Position numbers and translations under genes: made by a program | Notes under the pieces: model-generated | What the model was told of the DNA's origin: nothing | The model's input: the letters and a program-made list of their open reading frames with translations, nothing else | The model's database searches: none | In this document: one piece after another, positions 10,991 through 16,419 of the stretch | Position numbering within the stretch: the first letter of the stretch is position 1 | Layout of the letters: every line of letters starts with the position of its first letter | DNA from: an uncultured Pseudothermotoga sp. | GTDB taxonomy: Bacteria > Thermotogota > Thermotogae > Thermotogales > DSM-5069 | DNA: 64,000 nucleotides | Reading direction: 5' to 3' | Assembly: GCA_937995655.1 (NCBI GenBank) | Contig: CALKJI010000006.1 | Coordinates: 62,001-126,000, forward strand

Positions 10991-11022
10991 ATAAAAAATC
11001 GGTAGCGAAAGTCTCTACCGAT
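10991..11022 (-). terminator. Intrinsic terminator of the purine riboswitch expression platform
   Basis: In the transcript, the arm ATCGGTAG and its complement CTACCGAT form an 8 bp stem around a 9-base loop, followed by a TTTTTTATTT run (A tract at 10991-10998). It sits between the aptamer and the purE ribosome-binding site. The 5' arm and part of the loop are also perfectly complementary over 10 bases to the aptamer core, so the stem can be blocked in the unbound state. Confidence 0.9.
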
Positions 11023-11033
11023 AAATGATATTA

Positions 11034-11107
11034 GCCCTTGTAGCCAGGACAGTTTACGGCTGTCCGGTAGAGACTTCCGAGCCCTATCCTCGGAATTATA
11101 CAAGGGC
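11034..11107 (-). ncRNA. Purine (guanine-type, C74) riboswitch aptamer
   Basis: A 9 bp P1 (GCCCTTGTA with TACAAGGGC) encloses TATAATTCC, P2 with loop GATAGGG, the J2/3 element GTCTCTACC, and P3 with loop CCGTAAA. This matches the purine riboswitch class. The base just before the P1 3' strand is C, the residue that pairs with guanine; adenine switches have U there. Departures from the usual aptamer are GG in place of GA before that C, an extra U after P3, and GATAGGG for GATATGG in L2. Placement in front of the purine operon with a following terminator implies an OFF switch. Confidence 0.93.
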
Positions 11108-11146
11108 ATTTCCCCGTGGGAGGGAAATATTCACTTGTACGTTTTA

Positions 11147-11315: not shown

Positions 11316-12104
11316 CTATTTCGAACTCAATACACATACAGAAGCGGGTACATTCAGCAGTAACGCAAGGCTTTCAGATATTGAAAACTCAAATTTTTCA
11401 CCCACAGGACCTATGAAACCTATTGACATGTCCTGGCCGATTATTATTGAAGCATACGCCTCTGACTCGCTTATGAGAACACCAGAGTCTTTCAAGATAG
11501 GTGCCTTGTAAACTGATTTTACGAGAGTTCTAAGATGTTCCAATTCTGTCTGATTTCCACTCTCGTATCTTCTGAAAAGTAAGTTATATCTCTCAGGTGC
11601 TAAAGCCAGTATGTACGGTCCATGGAAACCTGCTTGGTCAAGGCGAGTGACAGCCTCAATTATGTTGTTCACAGCCTCACCAACTTTTTCCCAAGATTTT
11701 AATTCCACATTGAGCACACCTTCTGAGTTTAGTAAACCTCTGGAGGTTATACCTTCGAAAATCAATCTATCCTCGATCGTTGCGCACTCTTTTGTAACTC
11801 CAATCAAAGAAGAAAGGTCAATGGCAACGCCTTCCTTTTCATAGCTAGCAAGGTCTCTTTTGGAAATCAAGAAAGTTCTGTGAATGTAAGTCAGCGGGAG
11901 TGTCTTGATTGAAAAAATTCCAGGTCCAACTTCAACGTCTGTCAGGGATATCTGTCTCAAGCCCAGCCCAAAAGGTCCCTTGGTTGGAAGGATTTTTCTA
12001 CCTGTAAGCTGGTGTTTTGCCGTCTCAATCATGGTATTGTTAAAAAGCTCCCAGAGTTCGGTTGATATGGGGGCATCTTGCTGCATTAGGTATTTGTTTG
12101 CCAT
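11316..12104 (-). CDS. Encapsulin shell protein (family 1, HK97 fold)
   Basis: Self-assembling protein of a bacterial nanocompartment. About 262 aa, the size of the T. maritima shell. Recognisable features are the N-terminal helix region with the L-x-G-R-K segment, the P-F-G-L-G stretch, the A-x-x-E-D segment (here A-T-I-E-D-R-L-I-F-E-G), and the late G-Q-D-M-S-I-G-F motif before a hydrophobic C-terminus. The ATG at 12104 is chosen because AAGGAAGGTGAG lies just upstream and the preceding cargo gene stops two bases before it. The sequence clearly differs from the T. maritima shell as I remember it. Identity is strong; the role in iron storage is inferred from the adjacent cargo gene. Confidence 0.9.
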   Translation of the reverse strand: MANKYLMQQDAPISTELWELFNNTMIETAKHQLTGRKILPTKGPFGLGLRQISLTDVEVGPGIFSIKTLPLTYIHRTFLISKRDLASYEKEGVAIDLSSLIGVTKECATIEDRLIFEGITSRGLLNSEGVLNVELKSWEKVGEAVNNIIEAVTRLDQAGFHGPYILALAPERYNLLFRRYESGNQTELEHLRTLVKSVYKAPILKDSGVLISESEAYASIIIGQDMSIGFIGPVGEKFEFSISESLALLLNVPASVCVLSSK

Positions 12105-12105
12105 A

Positions 12106-12447
12106 TTACTCACCTTCCTTGAGAGAGCCAATAGTTGGCTCTTCATCACCCATTTCTTTGATGATGTCTTCGACTTCTTTCGCTCCTTGTTCCATGAACT
12201 GTGCCTCATCCTTTGTGAGAATCTCTAAAAGTCTTGTAAACTCTCCAATGTGAACTCTTTCTTCGTTTGCGATTTCCATCAATACCTTCTTTGCCAGGGG
12301 ATGATCTGTTGCATCGGCATGTGATAAATATTGATGTACCGCTTCATGTTCCGCAGCCACGTTCAGCCTAATGGCTCTGATTAACTCTGAAAGGGTCATT
12401 TTCCTATCGGGAATCTTCCCGCTGAAAGGATTGACAAATTCCGGCAT
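12106..12447 (-). CDS. Encapsulated ferritin-like protein (cargo)
   Basis: A 113 aa ferritin-like protein with two predicted helices. It has iron-ligand patterns A-E-H-E-A-V-H (about residues 32-38) and N-E-E-R-V-H (about 62-67), as in the short Flp/EncFtn proteins that form an active site only on dimerisation. The tail, after an acidic linker, is T-I-G-S-L-K-E, the typical family 1 encapsulin cargo-loading peptide. It is first in a two-gene unit with the shell gene. The start ATG follows TTTTAGGAGG. Expected function is ferroxidase activity inside the shell, storing mineralised iron. Confidence 0.92.
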   Translation of the reverse strand: MPEFVNPFSGKIPDRKMTLSELIRAIRLNVAAEHEAVHQYLSHADATDHPLAKKVLMEIANEERVHIGEFTRLLEILTKDEAQFMEQGAKEVEDIIKEMGDEEPTIGSLKEGE

Positions 12448-12665: not shown

Positions 12666-13415
12666 TCAGATGTGTTTATATCCTAATTTTTGTGATATCA
12701 ACTTGGCACAATCAACTACCTTGATTGAAAGGCTTTCAATAACATCATCTGATAGCACCGAAGCCGCACCAGATATGCTGATGGCAGCTATGGGGTAAGA
12801 TTCGTGATTCAGTATGACAGCTCCTATACATTTTATACCAACTTCGCTTTCTTCATTGTCTACAGCATAACCACGGGTTTTTATCCTGGCGATTTCGTCG
12901 CGAAGTTTCTGGATGTCCGTTATTGTTTTCTCTGTCCTCTTTATCAGTCTTACAGCACTCAAGTATTCTTCAAATTCCTTTGCAGGTAGGTGGGCCAAAA
13001 TTGCCTTGCCGGCCGAAGTTGAATATAATGGTGCGCGCATACCGATCTTTGAAACCATAGGAATACTGTTGATACCCTCGACTTTATCAAGATAGACTCC
13101 TTCAAAACCATCTTTAATTATTAAATGCACGGTTTGACCAGTTTTTGTCATCAAATCTACTAAATCTTTGTGTGCCATATCTCTGATGTCGAATCTTCTT
13201 AGAATGATTGAACCATACTCCAGCAGCTTAAATCCAGGGTGATAGGTTTTGCCATCACGCCTTGTGAGGTAACCGTATTCTGTAAAAACAACCAAATATT
13301 TGCATGCGTTGGAGATACTCATAGAGAAATGTTTTGATATCTCACTGGCTGTTACTCCCTTTGGTGCTTTTACGATGTAATCGAGTATCTCAATACCCTT
13401 TTTGAGCGTATGCAA
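12666..13415 (-). CDS. IclR-family transcriptional regulator
   Basis: Winged-helix repressor/activator, 249 aa. The N-terminal HTH (about residues 5-60, containing V-T-A-S-E-I-S-K-H-F) is followed by the IclR effector domain with A-P-L-Y-S-T-S-A-G-K-A-I-L-A (about 128-141) and the C-terminal A-A-I-S-I-S-G-A. The start codon is TTG, with AAAGGAGAT six bases upstream; the kdgF stop lies inside that SD region. It is the last gene of the uronate operon, so it is probably the local KdgR-type regulator responding to a uronate intermediate. That function is inferred from context. Confidence 0.88.
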   Translation of the reverse strand: MHTLKKGIEILDYIVKAPKGVTASEISKHFSMSISNACKYLVVFTEYGYLTRRDGKTYHPGFKLLEYGSIILRRFDIRDMAHKDLVDLMTKTGQTVHLIIKDGFEGVYLDKVEGINSIPMVSKIGMRAPLYSTSAGKAILAHLPAKEFEEYLSAVRLIKRTEKTITDIQKLRDEIARIKTRGYAVDNEESEVGIKCIGAVILNHESYPIAAISISGAASVLSDDVIESLSIKVVDCAKLISQKLGYKHI

Positions 13416-13418
13416 GAT

Positions 13419-13757
13419 TTAATCTCCTTTCTTTAGAAAATCTTCTCTGATTGGTGTAAAGACATCGACAAGTGAACCATCTGTGATTGCCTTTACCCAG
13501 TGTGAAACGTCTGATGGAATGTAGATACTGTAGCCCTGTTTTACTTCATACTCTTTGTCGTCAATGAAATATATGAAATCACCTTCAACTACATAGGAGA
13601 GCTGCTCGTGTTTGTGTGAGTGTGGATCACTTGTCGCACCCTTTGTGAAAAAAACCTGGGTCATCATCAGGGATCCGCCCCAAGCCAAAACACGCATTTG
13701 GATTCCTTCTTTGATTGTTCTTCTCTGTATCGTGTTAACATCGACGATACTGATCAT
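13419..13757 (-). CDS. kdgF: Cupin protein, KdgF-like (unsaturated uronate ring-opening)
   Basis: Single-domain cupin, 112 aa. The metal-binding pattern is H-S-H-K-H-E-Q (about residues 47-53) with a later H-W in S-D-V-S-H-W-V. Length, the S-H-K-H-E-Q motif and the P-S-D-V-x-H pattern fit KdgF, which converts 4,5-unsaturated monouronates from pectin or alginate breakdown to the linear keto form. It overlaps the dehydrogenase gene by 4 bp and sits between KduD-like and IclR genes, which supports the role. A generic cupin of another sugar pathway cannot be excluded. Confidence 0.75.
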   Translation of the reverse strand: MISIVDVNTIQRRTIKEGIQMRVLAWGGSLMMTQVFFTKGATSDPHSHKHEQLSYVVEGDFIYFIDDKEYEVKQGYSIYIPSDVSHWVKAITDGSLVDVFTPIREDFLKKGD

Positions 13758-14521
13758 CTACATAGCCACCCCCCGTCTACAGGAATCACCGCACCTGTGA
13801 CATAATCAGATGCTGAACTTGCCAAGAAAACGACTACACCCTTCAAATCCTCTGGATCGCCCCATCTTCCCATGGGAATTCTTGAAAGGATCTCTCTGTT
13901 TCTACTTTCATCCATCCTCAGTGGTTCGGTGTTCTTTGTTGCCATATATCCTGGTGCAATGGCGTTTACATTTATTCCATATGGTGCCAACTCATTGGCA
14001 AGAACCTTCGTCAATCCAACGATCCCATGTTTTGAGACCGTGTACGCCGTTGTGAGAATACCTCCTTGGAAGGATAGCATCGAAGCAATATTGATTATCT
14101 TCCCTCTTGTCTTTCTTTCTATTACATATCGTGCAAATCGTTGAGATAGTACAAAAACTGATTTGAGGTTCACGGTCATCACTTCATCCCAATCTTTTTC
14201 AGCATATTGTGTCGCAGGTGCTCTGCGAATTATTCCCGCGTTGTTAACTAAGATGTCAATTTTGCCAAAGCTCTCAACAGATTTGTCGATGATAGAAGAG
14301 GTATTCGATGAATCTTTCAGATCCATCCTTAGTTCCAGATACCTTCTATTGAGGCTCTCAACCATCTTTTTTGTTTCTGTTTGATCGGAAGATCTGCTCA
14401 CTCCAACTATATCTGCACCAGCTTCGGCTAATGCGATAGCCATTGCCTGACCAAGCCCACGGGAAGCACCCGTAACTATTGCAACCTTTCCTGACAATGA
14501 AAAACTCTCCATAATGCTCAT
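13754..14521 (-). CDS. SDR-family 2-deoxy-D-gluconate 3-dehydrogenase-like (KduD)
   Basis: Classical short-chain dehydrogenase, 255 aa. It has T-G-A-S-R-G-L-G (residues ~18-25) for NAD(P) binding, N-N-A-G at ~93, catalytic Ser in the I-A-S-M-L-S segment, and Y-T-V-S-K at ~160, with the C-terminal G-A-V-I-P-V-D-G-G-W. In pectin catabolism KduD oxidises or reduces the 2-keto-3-deoxygluconate-type intermediate. The start ATG follows GAGAGGTG. Family assignment is firm; the substrate is inferred from the KdgF and isomerase neighbours. Confidence 0.82.
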   Translation of the reverse strand: MSIMESFSLSGKVAIVTGASRGLGQAMAIALAEAGADIVGVSRSSDQTETKKMVESLNRRYLELRMDLKDSSNTSSIIDKSVESFGKIDILVNNAGIIRRAPATQYAEKDWDEVMTVNLKSVFVLSQRFARYVIERKTRGKIINIASMLSFQGGILTTAYTVSKHGIVGLTKVLANELAPYGINVNAIAPGYMATKNTEPLRMDESRNREILSRIPMGRWGDPEDLKGVVVFLASSASDYVTGAVIPVDGGWLCR

Positions 14522-14533
14522 TCTCTACACCTC

Positions 14534-15376
14534 TCATATGGAAAGATTGTTTTCAATGTTCTTGATCATCTTTGTGGCCAAATCTACAAATCTTAAATCT
14601 GGATCGACATAGGGTACCTGTATTCTCTTGGGACCTGCCAAGAACCACAGATAGTACACGGTGAAACCTGGTGCTGCAACAACTGTATGATAGCCCTTTG
14701 GTATCAAGTGCAATGTGTTGTCTTGGACCACATAACTGGCATCCAAGTCTCTCGAGTCAGTATAATGCCTTGCAAGTCCAAAACCTTTGGGATGATCGGT
14801 TTTGTAAAAGTAAATCTCTTCTAAATAACTTTCATCTGGAAGATTATCATTTTCATGCCTGTGTGGCGGATATGTTGACCAGTTTCCTGAGGGAGTGAAG
14901 GTCTCACCTATCATCAGTCTCATGGCAGGATGATTTTGATCAACTGCAATCTGATGATAGGTTCTTGAGTAATTCGAGACACCCCATTTTCCCGATGCAA
15001 CTTCCTCTGGTTTTATCAAGTATGGTTCTATAAAAGTTTCTTCATCGACCTTTGCTTTTGCCAAGGCGATTTCCGCACTGTCTTGTTGGCTAGTTTGAAG
15101 GGTGAAGACAGATCTTGGAGGTATATAGACTGAAAAAGGTTTGCCTTGAAAAACATTTTTTCTTGTGCCAATGTTCTTAAATTCTCTGTCTCTAACAGAT
15201 ACATCACACTTTCCAGAGAGCACAACTAAGAAAATCTCATAATCTGAACTGTTCGAAAAGTATTCCTGCGAAGGAGAAAGTAAAATTCTTTCAAAACCAA
15301 GATAGCTCATACCATTGTCTGGTGGATCGGTTCTGAATATTCTCTCTTGCTTTGGTAATTGTAAGAAATACTGCAC
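14534..15376 (-). CDS. IolB/KduI-type 5-deoxy-glucuronate isomerase-like bicupin
   Basis: About 280 aa bicupin. The central block G-N-W-S-T-Y-P-P-H-R-H followed by L-E-E-I-Y-F-Y-K, and the later P-K-G-Y-H-T-V-V-A-A-P-G, are IolB-family signatures (metal-binding His and Glu). IolB isomerises 5-deoxy-glucuronate in inositol catabolism, but no inositol genes are nearby. With kdgF and a KduD-like gene it probably does the KduI step, isomerising 5-keto-4-deoxyuronate; this is inference. The start is placed at the GTG at 15376, six bases after GAGGTGA; the GTG at 15385 lies inside that SD. Confidence 0.75.
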   Translation of the reverse strand: MQYFLQLPKQERIFRTDPPDNGMSYLGFERILLSPSQEYFSNSSDYEIFLVVLSGKCDVSVRDREFKNIGTRKNVFQGKPFSVYIPPRSVFTLQTSQQDSAEIALAKAKVDEETFIEPYLIKPEEVASGKWGVSNYSRTYHQIAVDQNHPAMRLMIGETFTPSGNWSTYPPHRHENDNLPDESYLEEIYFYKTDHPKGFGLARHYTDSRDLDASYVVQDNTLHLIPKGYHTVVAAPGFTVYYLWFLAGPKRIQVPYVDPDLRFVDLATKMIKNIENNLSI

Positions 15377-15401
15377 AGGAATCACCTCATTGTCATTTTA
15401 T

Positions 15402-15567: not shown

Positions 15568-16419
15568 GTGAAGGAGGAAGTTATACTGACTAACTTTCAA
15601 AAAAACGAGATAACCGAACACGTTGTTTACAGAATACTTGCAAAGCAAAATAGATCAGATAATTCAGCGATCTTAACCAAAATATCGCGTGAGGAACTTG
15701 CTCACTATGAAAAAATCCGTTCCTTAACAAAGGTAGACAAAGGGCCGAACTGGTTGAAGGTATTTTTGTATGTTGCTCTCGCAAAGATCCTTGGCTTGAC
15801 CTTCGCATTGAAATTGATGGAAAGGGGCGAAGAAAAAGCCCAGAAGAACTACTCACTATCTCAAGAAGATCTTTTGAAAGAACTAGCTAGGGATGAAAAA
15901 GTACATGAACAAGAGTTACTCGAACTTATCAATGAAGAAAGACTCGACTACATAGGTTCGATGGTTCTTGGATTGAACGATGCCCTCGTTGAATTGACAG
16001 GAGCGTTGGCTGGTCTCACGTTGGCTGTACAGAAAGCATCTATCGTGGCTCTTTCGGGTATAATAACTGGTATAGCTGCAGCTCTTTCTATGTCAGCTTC
16101 TGATTATTTATCAAGAAAGTCAGAAGGTGGAGAGAAAAAACCGCTTAGATCTGCTCTGTACACAGGCATTGCTTATATATTCACCGTTTTGTTTTTGACC
16201 TTCCCCTATCTTGTTCTGAAAAACCCTTTCATCGCACTTTCTCTGACCGTTTTGAATGCGATTTTTGTCATTTTCGTCTTCACATTCTTCTTGTCTGTTG
16301 TTAAAGATCAAAGTTTTGGCAAAAATTTTGTAGAGATGTTATCGATAAGTATGGGGGTAGCAGCGGTCTCATTTTTCATAGGCCTCTTCGTCAGAAGGTT
16401 TTTCAACATCGATATCTGA
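15568..16419 (+). CDS. Ferritin-like/VIT1 fusion membrane iron transporter (MbfA-like)
   Basis: The N-terminal ~125 residues form a rubrerythrin/ferritin-like domain with E-E-L-A-H-Y-E (about 47-53) and D-E-K-V-H-E-Q (about 109-115) iron-ligand patterns. The rest is a CCC1/VIT1-type membrane domain with five hydrophobic segments and the G-L-N-D-A-L-V-E-L-T-G-A-L-A-G motif at about 134-148. Known relatives (bacterial MbfA, plant/yeast VIT1/CCC1) export Fe2+ or Mn2+. The start is uncertain: a GTG at 15568 opens the frame, but AAGGAGG lies inside it and no ATG/GTG/TTG follows at the right distance. The 3' end overlaps the convergent DUF4129 gene by 51 bp. Confidence 0.87.
   Translation: MKEEVILTNFQKNEITEHVVYRILAKQNRSDNSAILTKISREELAHYEKIRSLTKVDKGPNWLKVFLYVALAKILGLTFALKLMERGEEKAQKNYSLSQEDLLKELARDEKVHEQELLELINEERLDYIGSMVLGLNDALVELTGALAGLTLAVQKASIVALSGIITGIAAALSMSASDYLSRKSEGGEKKPLRSALYTGIAYIFTVLFLTFPYLVLKNPFIALSLTVLNAIFVIFVFTFFLSVVKDQSFGKNFVEMLSISMGVAAVSFFIGLFVRRFFNIDI

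Follow-up and report, generated by a model that had tools for sequence, protein, structure and literature searches.

Among the described encapsulins, those of Myxococcus xanthus (EncA/EncC; 4pt2, 7s8t), Quasibacillus thermotolerans (6nj8), Thermotoga maritima (3dkt, 7kq5) and Pyrococcus furiosus (2e0z, 5n5e) stand closest to the locus presented here. The Q. thermotolerans shell is a T=4 assembly whose cargo, IMEF, is a four-helix Dps-like protein described as lacking ExxH (PMC11202242). In T. maritima the FLP cargo falls under the TIGR04535 model and carries a GDLGIRKL-type tail, and residue W90 of the shell binds flavin (PMC8610991). The ferritin domain of P. furiosus is fused to the shell, and archaeal fusion-FLPs bear the signature DXXXEEXA(T)H (PMC11202242). 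For bacterial EncFtns the same source reports an HXXXEEXEH signature and an EXXE entry site, the former as a trait and not as a requirement. The ferroxidase residues of the R. rubrum EncFtn are Glu32, Tyr39, Glu62 and His65 (PMC5012862). Flps located outside encapsulin operons and devoid of a targeting peptide have already been described as noEncFlp (PMC6668986) and s-FLPs (PMC11202242). A search of the open-licence part of PubMed Central found no paper on encapsulins in Pseudothermotoga or Thermotoga lettingae, and likewise none on Anaerolineae encapsulins with a ferritin-like protein or on horizontal transfer of Thermotogae encapsulins.

The window, i.e. the whole stretch of 64,000 nucleotides of an uncultured Pseudothermotoga sp. 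that was analyzed, carries two adjoining genes on its minus strand. The upstream cargo gene (12106..12447, stop included) encodes a 113-aa EncFtn-type ferritin-like protein of the EncB family and the downstream shell gene (11316..12104, stop included) a 262-aa family 1 encapsulin with the HK97 fold. A single base separates the stop codon of the cargo from the ATG of the shell, and GGAAGGTGAG, in the final stretch of the cargo gene, may serve as ribosome site for shell translation. The start of the shell was placed at the conserved MANKYL (12104) in preference to a longer mechanical ORF from 12209. The shell matched Linocin_M18 in Pfam (PF04454, E=1.6e-67) and encap_f1 in NCBIfam (NF041155; 196.8 bits, cut-off 100). 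The cargo matched EncB_fam in NCBIfam (111.1 bits, cut-off 90) and, modestly, the Pfam Rubrerythrin family (E=2.4e-7); against TIGR04535, which models T. maritima-type cargo, it failed with 76.3 bits (cut-off 125). An earlier note had proposed an encapsulin shell of family 1 with a ferritin-like cargo, and curated models, structure prediction and conserved pairing all bear this out at the above coordinates. A chance pairing is excluded by the PF04454, encap_f1 and EncB_fam scores, together with the presence of a tailed cargo upstream of the shell at 38 of 38 loci. The stand-alone cargo gene mentioned in that note is nothing unusual: the cargo is separate and upstream in all nine mapped loci of the T. 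maritima type, and T. maritima-type cargo is present at 29/29 such loci examined. With its EncB-family cargo the locus is a family 1 encapsulin of the ordinary sort, and belongs to a known kind of bacterial iron-storage compartment. A phage origin was also considered and rejected, tblastn of the shell against a phage collection having returned no match.

The monomer model of the cargo (mean pLDDT 84.0, pTM 0.65) has three helices, two of them long, and a tail modelled with low confidence. The four best Foldseek matches of this model, all with weak E-values, were encapsulated ferritins (5n5e, 7s8t, 7s5k and 7s5c), with that of P. furiosus at the top (E=3.1e-4) and M. xanthus EncC also among the best, EncC being as well the best match by sequence (E=6.2e-15). 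Matched by motif spacing, E33, Y40, E63 and H66 of the cargo correspond to the ferroxidase residues of the R. rubrum EncFtn. Of the paired ExxH motifs in the earlier note, both strings exist, but only E63-R-V-H66 (12250..12261, minus strand) is conserved as the ferroxidase motif, E33 and Y40 completing the site. The other string, E35-A-V-H38 (12334..12345, minus strand), has a histidine that is not conserved beyond close relatives, residue 38 being H in some relatives and Q, S or T in many. The ExxH and the EncFtn fold do not fit an IMEF-type cargo.

Both the EXXE entry site and HXXXEEXEH are absent from this cargo and present in 9/9 cargos of type A, by which we denote the T. maritima-type systems of Thermotogota, type B being those of the window's group; iron entry and exit may therefore differ from those in the best-studied bacterial EncFtns. 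The signature of the window's cargo reads EXXXEEXVH, and its first position is E in three and D in seven of the ten type-B rows, and D in all 18 tailless rows considered below and in 36/36 rows from other phyla (two of which have EEXEH). This (D/E)XXXEEXVH pattern resembles the archaeal fusion-FLP signature, although the ferritin domain here is separate and tailed, and it differs from the HXXXEEXEH of EncC, with which the cargo shares the lack of the EXXE entry motif. In the same genome, outside the window, a classical ferritin is encoded (G000:C6:36052-36459; PF00210, E=1e-42), so that the encapsulin is not the sole iron store.

The cargo ends in EEPTIGSLKEGE, of which residues 105-113 (12109..12135, minus strand) form the predicted C-terminal targeting tail TIGSLKEGE, similar to the reported TVGSLIQ tail (PMC6668986) and to the TVGSL-type tail of Q. 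thermotolerans. The tail T-I-G-S-L-K-E that had been pointed out earlier was located at residues 105-111, and its conservation supports the targeting role ascribed to it. Tail variants at the 38 loci include TIGALR, TVGPLK and TVGDMK, and the linker before the tail is shorter in Thermotogota (11-12 residues) than in the other phyla (19-27).

These 38 loci, nearly all from metagenome bins, were recovered by scanning a genome collection with a ten-row shell alignment, and they represent a lower bound, as the patterns used favour close relatives. They comprise 2 Thermotogota, 12 Chloroflexota, 22 Euryarchaeota (mostly named methanogens), 1 Atribacterota and 1 Brocadiaceae, each with a cargo bearing a TIGSLKE-type tail directly upstream of the shell; the shell frame is broken at one of them (L116). 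Within Thermotogota, a PF04454 shell was detected in 44 of 103 genomes, of which 29 were typed A and 10 typed B (nine of the window's family and G101), the remaining five (G035, G036, G048, G051 and G052) having yielded no locus for typing. No typed genome holds both types, and shell type agreed with cargo type at 31/31 loci tested (29 A-A and 2 B-B). PF19307, the model of the family 2 shell, matched none of the 103 genomes, and its control likewise matched nowhere. A second cassette was seen in two related bins, G101:C27 (L058:3899-4416) and G102:C82 (L057:5744-6267), with a shell match ending near residue 60; the cargo match beside it is intact in G101 and interrupted by a stop within the frame in G102. 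As both break at the same point, a genuine truncated copy seems likelier than an assembly error. Thermotogota share the window's type of cassette with Chloroflexota and methanogens, and it is distinct from that of T. maritima.

The earlier note had described the shell as clearly divergent from that of T. maritima, and this proved right: identity is 24.2% over 256 aligned residues to L070, a stand-in for the T. maritima type with a shell near-identical to 3dkt. The two systems nevertheless share a phylum, a similar shell length (262 vs 265 aa), shells that both pass the family 1 model and, on close relatives, a separate ferritin-like cargo gene upstream. It could be argued that the two shells are simply orthologues, the window's having evolved fast but behaving like that of T. 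maritima in forming T=1 particles and binding flavin. We regard this as very unlikely. Profile scores favour M. xanthus EncA (184 bits, the best match) and Quasibacillus (177) over T. maritima (120); identity is 30.4% to the M. xanthus shell and 31.7% over 240 residues to that of Quasibacillus. A tree of 57 shell rows (rooted at midpoint, with a tool warning of long branches) places a long and fully supported branch between the nine type-A rows and all others, among them the three PDB shells. Within the remainder all ten Thermotogota rows of type B fall into a single clade with support; the tree does not set the other-phylum rows off as a group of their own against the PDB shells, with which the Brocadiaceae row groups (97/97). 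The cargo models point the same way, as the window's cargo passes EncB_fam and fails TIGR04535, and the reverse holds for the type-A cargo of L070, which scores 156.2 bits on the latter (cut-off 125). At the flavin position, which the earlier note had wished to see compared, the flavin-stacking W90 of T. maritima aligns with R83 (11856..11858, minus strand). This position is W in 9/9 type-A rows and R in 44 of the 45 type-B and other-phylum rows, the remaining one having S; M. xanthus has R there too. Judged by sequence, the shell is placed on the Myxococcus/Quasibacillus side of family 1 and not on that of T. maritima.

A different doubt concerns the cargo. The ferritin-like protein might be free in the cytosol, with the shell carrying something else and the tail being incidental, and homologues of the cargo do occur apart from shells: they are 47-58% identical to it in 36 Thermotogota genomes, none of which has a PF04454 match. 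(From the 48 genomes with a cargo match, G102 with its truncated cassette and G046 with a weak match and a type-A shell were set aside.) Some of the 36 genomes are incomplete; the tail was read in 18 copies from 17 of them, and it is present in 0/18. It can be deduced from these tailless homologues that the fold can probably act unencapsulated. The same counts speak against a cytosolic role here, since the tail is kept wherever the shell is adjacent (10/10 Thermotogota type-B rows and 36/36 rows from other phyla, 46/46 in all) and is missing where no shell was found. On the cargo tree, which rests on few columns, the tail appears as one change, so that its association with the shell is a single event and not many independent ones. 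As for another passenger, clustering of ORFs up to 5 kb on each side of the 36 loci outside Thermotogota found only cargo and shell in common across phyla, the remaining clusters being methanogen or Chloroflexota synteny; a weak partner gene could have escaped, as the ORF caller chose spurious antisense frames in G+C-rich loci. Taken together, a free cytosolic protein beside a shell that carries something else is considered extremely improbable, and a tail-docked cargo is the reading retained. One tailless homologue from a genome with no detected shell (L055, the one protein tested) passes EncB_fam with 101.8 against the cut-off of 90, which implies that automatic annotation can name an encapsulin cargo where no compartment is found.

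The shell model, built with AlphaFold2 on 44 rows, is of high confidence (mean pLDDT 91.2, pTM 0.86) and shows an N-terminal helix at residues 15-32. Its best Foldseek matches were the encapsulins of Bacillus methanolicus and M. xanthus and one engineered encapsulin (28-30% identity), T. maritima ranking lower (25%). VIA-align gave Z values of 28.8 for the engineered encapsulin, 28.7 for M. xanthus EncA and 25.3 for T. maritima 3dkt; family 1 entries ranged from 28.8 to 18.0, the best phage capsid reaching 18.0 and some T. maritima pore mutants also about 18. Asn200 of the five-fold pore of Q. thermotolerans (PMC6668986) aligns with N184 of the window's shell. Between G46 and P70 lies a short E-loop region of 23 residues (11898..11966, minus strand), with 22-23 residues in 42/44 rows and 28-29 in L082 and L115; the aligned region is longer in the nine rows of T. 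maritima type (28-29 residues) and longest in M. xanthus EncA (38). The orientation of the E-loop is said to have a key role in the triangulation number (PMC6668986). As to capsid size the indicators conflict: the length of 262 aa resembles T=1 shells, homology points towards those with T=3 or T=4, and structure entries of both T=1 and T=3 exist for M. xanthus EncA. The shell group is without a solved structure.

The pair is surrounded by a putative purine operon and by genes that resemble those of sugar catabolism; among the neighbours, Pfam was applied to the IclR and VIT1 proteins. Between the shell gene and the presumed purine-biosynthesis operon, a purine riboswitch was found at 11021-11123 (minus strand; Rfam, 76.9 bits, gathering 37), reading in the same direction. 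The promoter and terminator scan returned fewer sites than shuffled sequences did. On the plus strand, 3.1 kb from the cargo, stands a gene (15568..16419) for a VIT1-family membrane protein (Pfam VIT1, E=9.1e-13) whose N-terminal part weakly matches rubrerythrin. This layout is that of the MbfA proteins, described under iron efflux in alpha-proteobacteria (PMC7762939). Of the ten full type-B cassettes of Thermotogota, nine have such a gene within 7 kb, six of them at 93-185 bp and three at 1.0, 3.1 and 6.7 kb; in the last (G057) the distance is 475 kb. With the truncated cassettes (93 bp in G101:C27, 67 bp in G102:C82), 8/12 Thermotogota type-B cargo loci have it at 67-185 bp. Many genomes with another encapsulin or none encode VIT1 homologues as well, and in the five type-A and three tailless genomes measurable on one contig they lie at least hundreds of kilobases off. 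The VIT1/rubrerythrin-like protein is probably a functional partner of the cassette. An IclR-regulator block (12666-15385, minus strand) occupies the interval between cargo and VIT1 gene in the window, and is longer in G064; the pair is close in most relatives, and the block is apparently a later insertion.

Overall, the locus is very probably a two-gene family 1 encapsulin operon for iron storage, with a tail-docked EncFtn-type ferroxidase as cargo and a probable link to VIT1 efflux. The shell protein would self-assemble into an icosahedral compartment, and the cargo, by analogy with its relatives, would form a ring of dimers around the di-iron ferroxidase centre of E33, Y40, E63 and H66. With its TIGSLKE tail anchored on the inside of the shell, as the sequence leads us to expect, the cargo may oxidise Fe2+ arriving through the pores, the ferric iron being stored inside. 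Surplus Fe2+ would probably be exported by the VIT1/rubrerythrin-like membrane protein, as its neighbourhood and the MbfA precedent suggest.

Rather more tentatively, and with doubt outweighing confidence, the cassettes could be viewed as an interdomain encapsulin group. Its short-E-loop shells would belong to the T=3/T=4 side of family 1, its separate and tailed cargo would have a ferroxidase environment like that of the archaeal fusion proteins, and its Thermotogota members would in addition be coupled to an iron exporter resembling MbfA. If this holds true, the capsid geometry would not be readable from any solved relative, and the homologues without a tail, encoded in genomes of this phylum that lack a shell, would offer a natural test of what encapsulation gives an EncFtn. 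Thermotogota possess two family 1 systems that are distant relatives of each other; each has a cargo subfamily and a tail of its own, and among the genomes typed the two are housed in different genomes. Coming from a thermophile and placed on the T=3/T=4 side, the present shell, with an E-loop shorter than in the aligned T. maritima-type and M. xanthus shells, bears on the determinants of capsid size.
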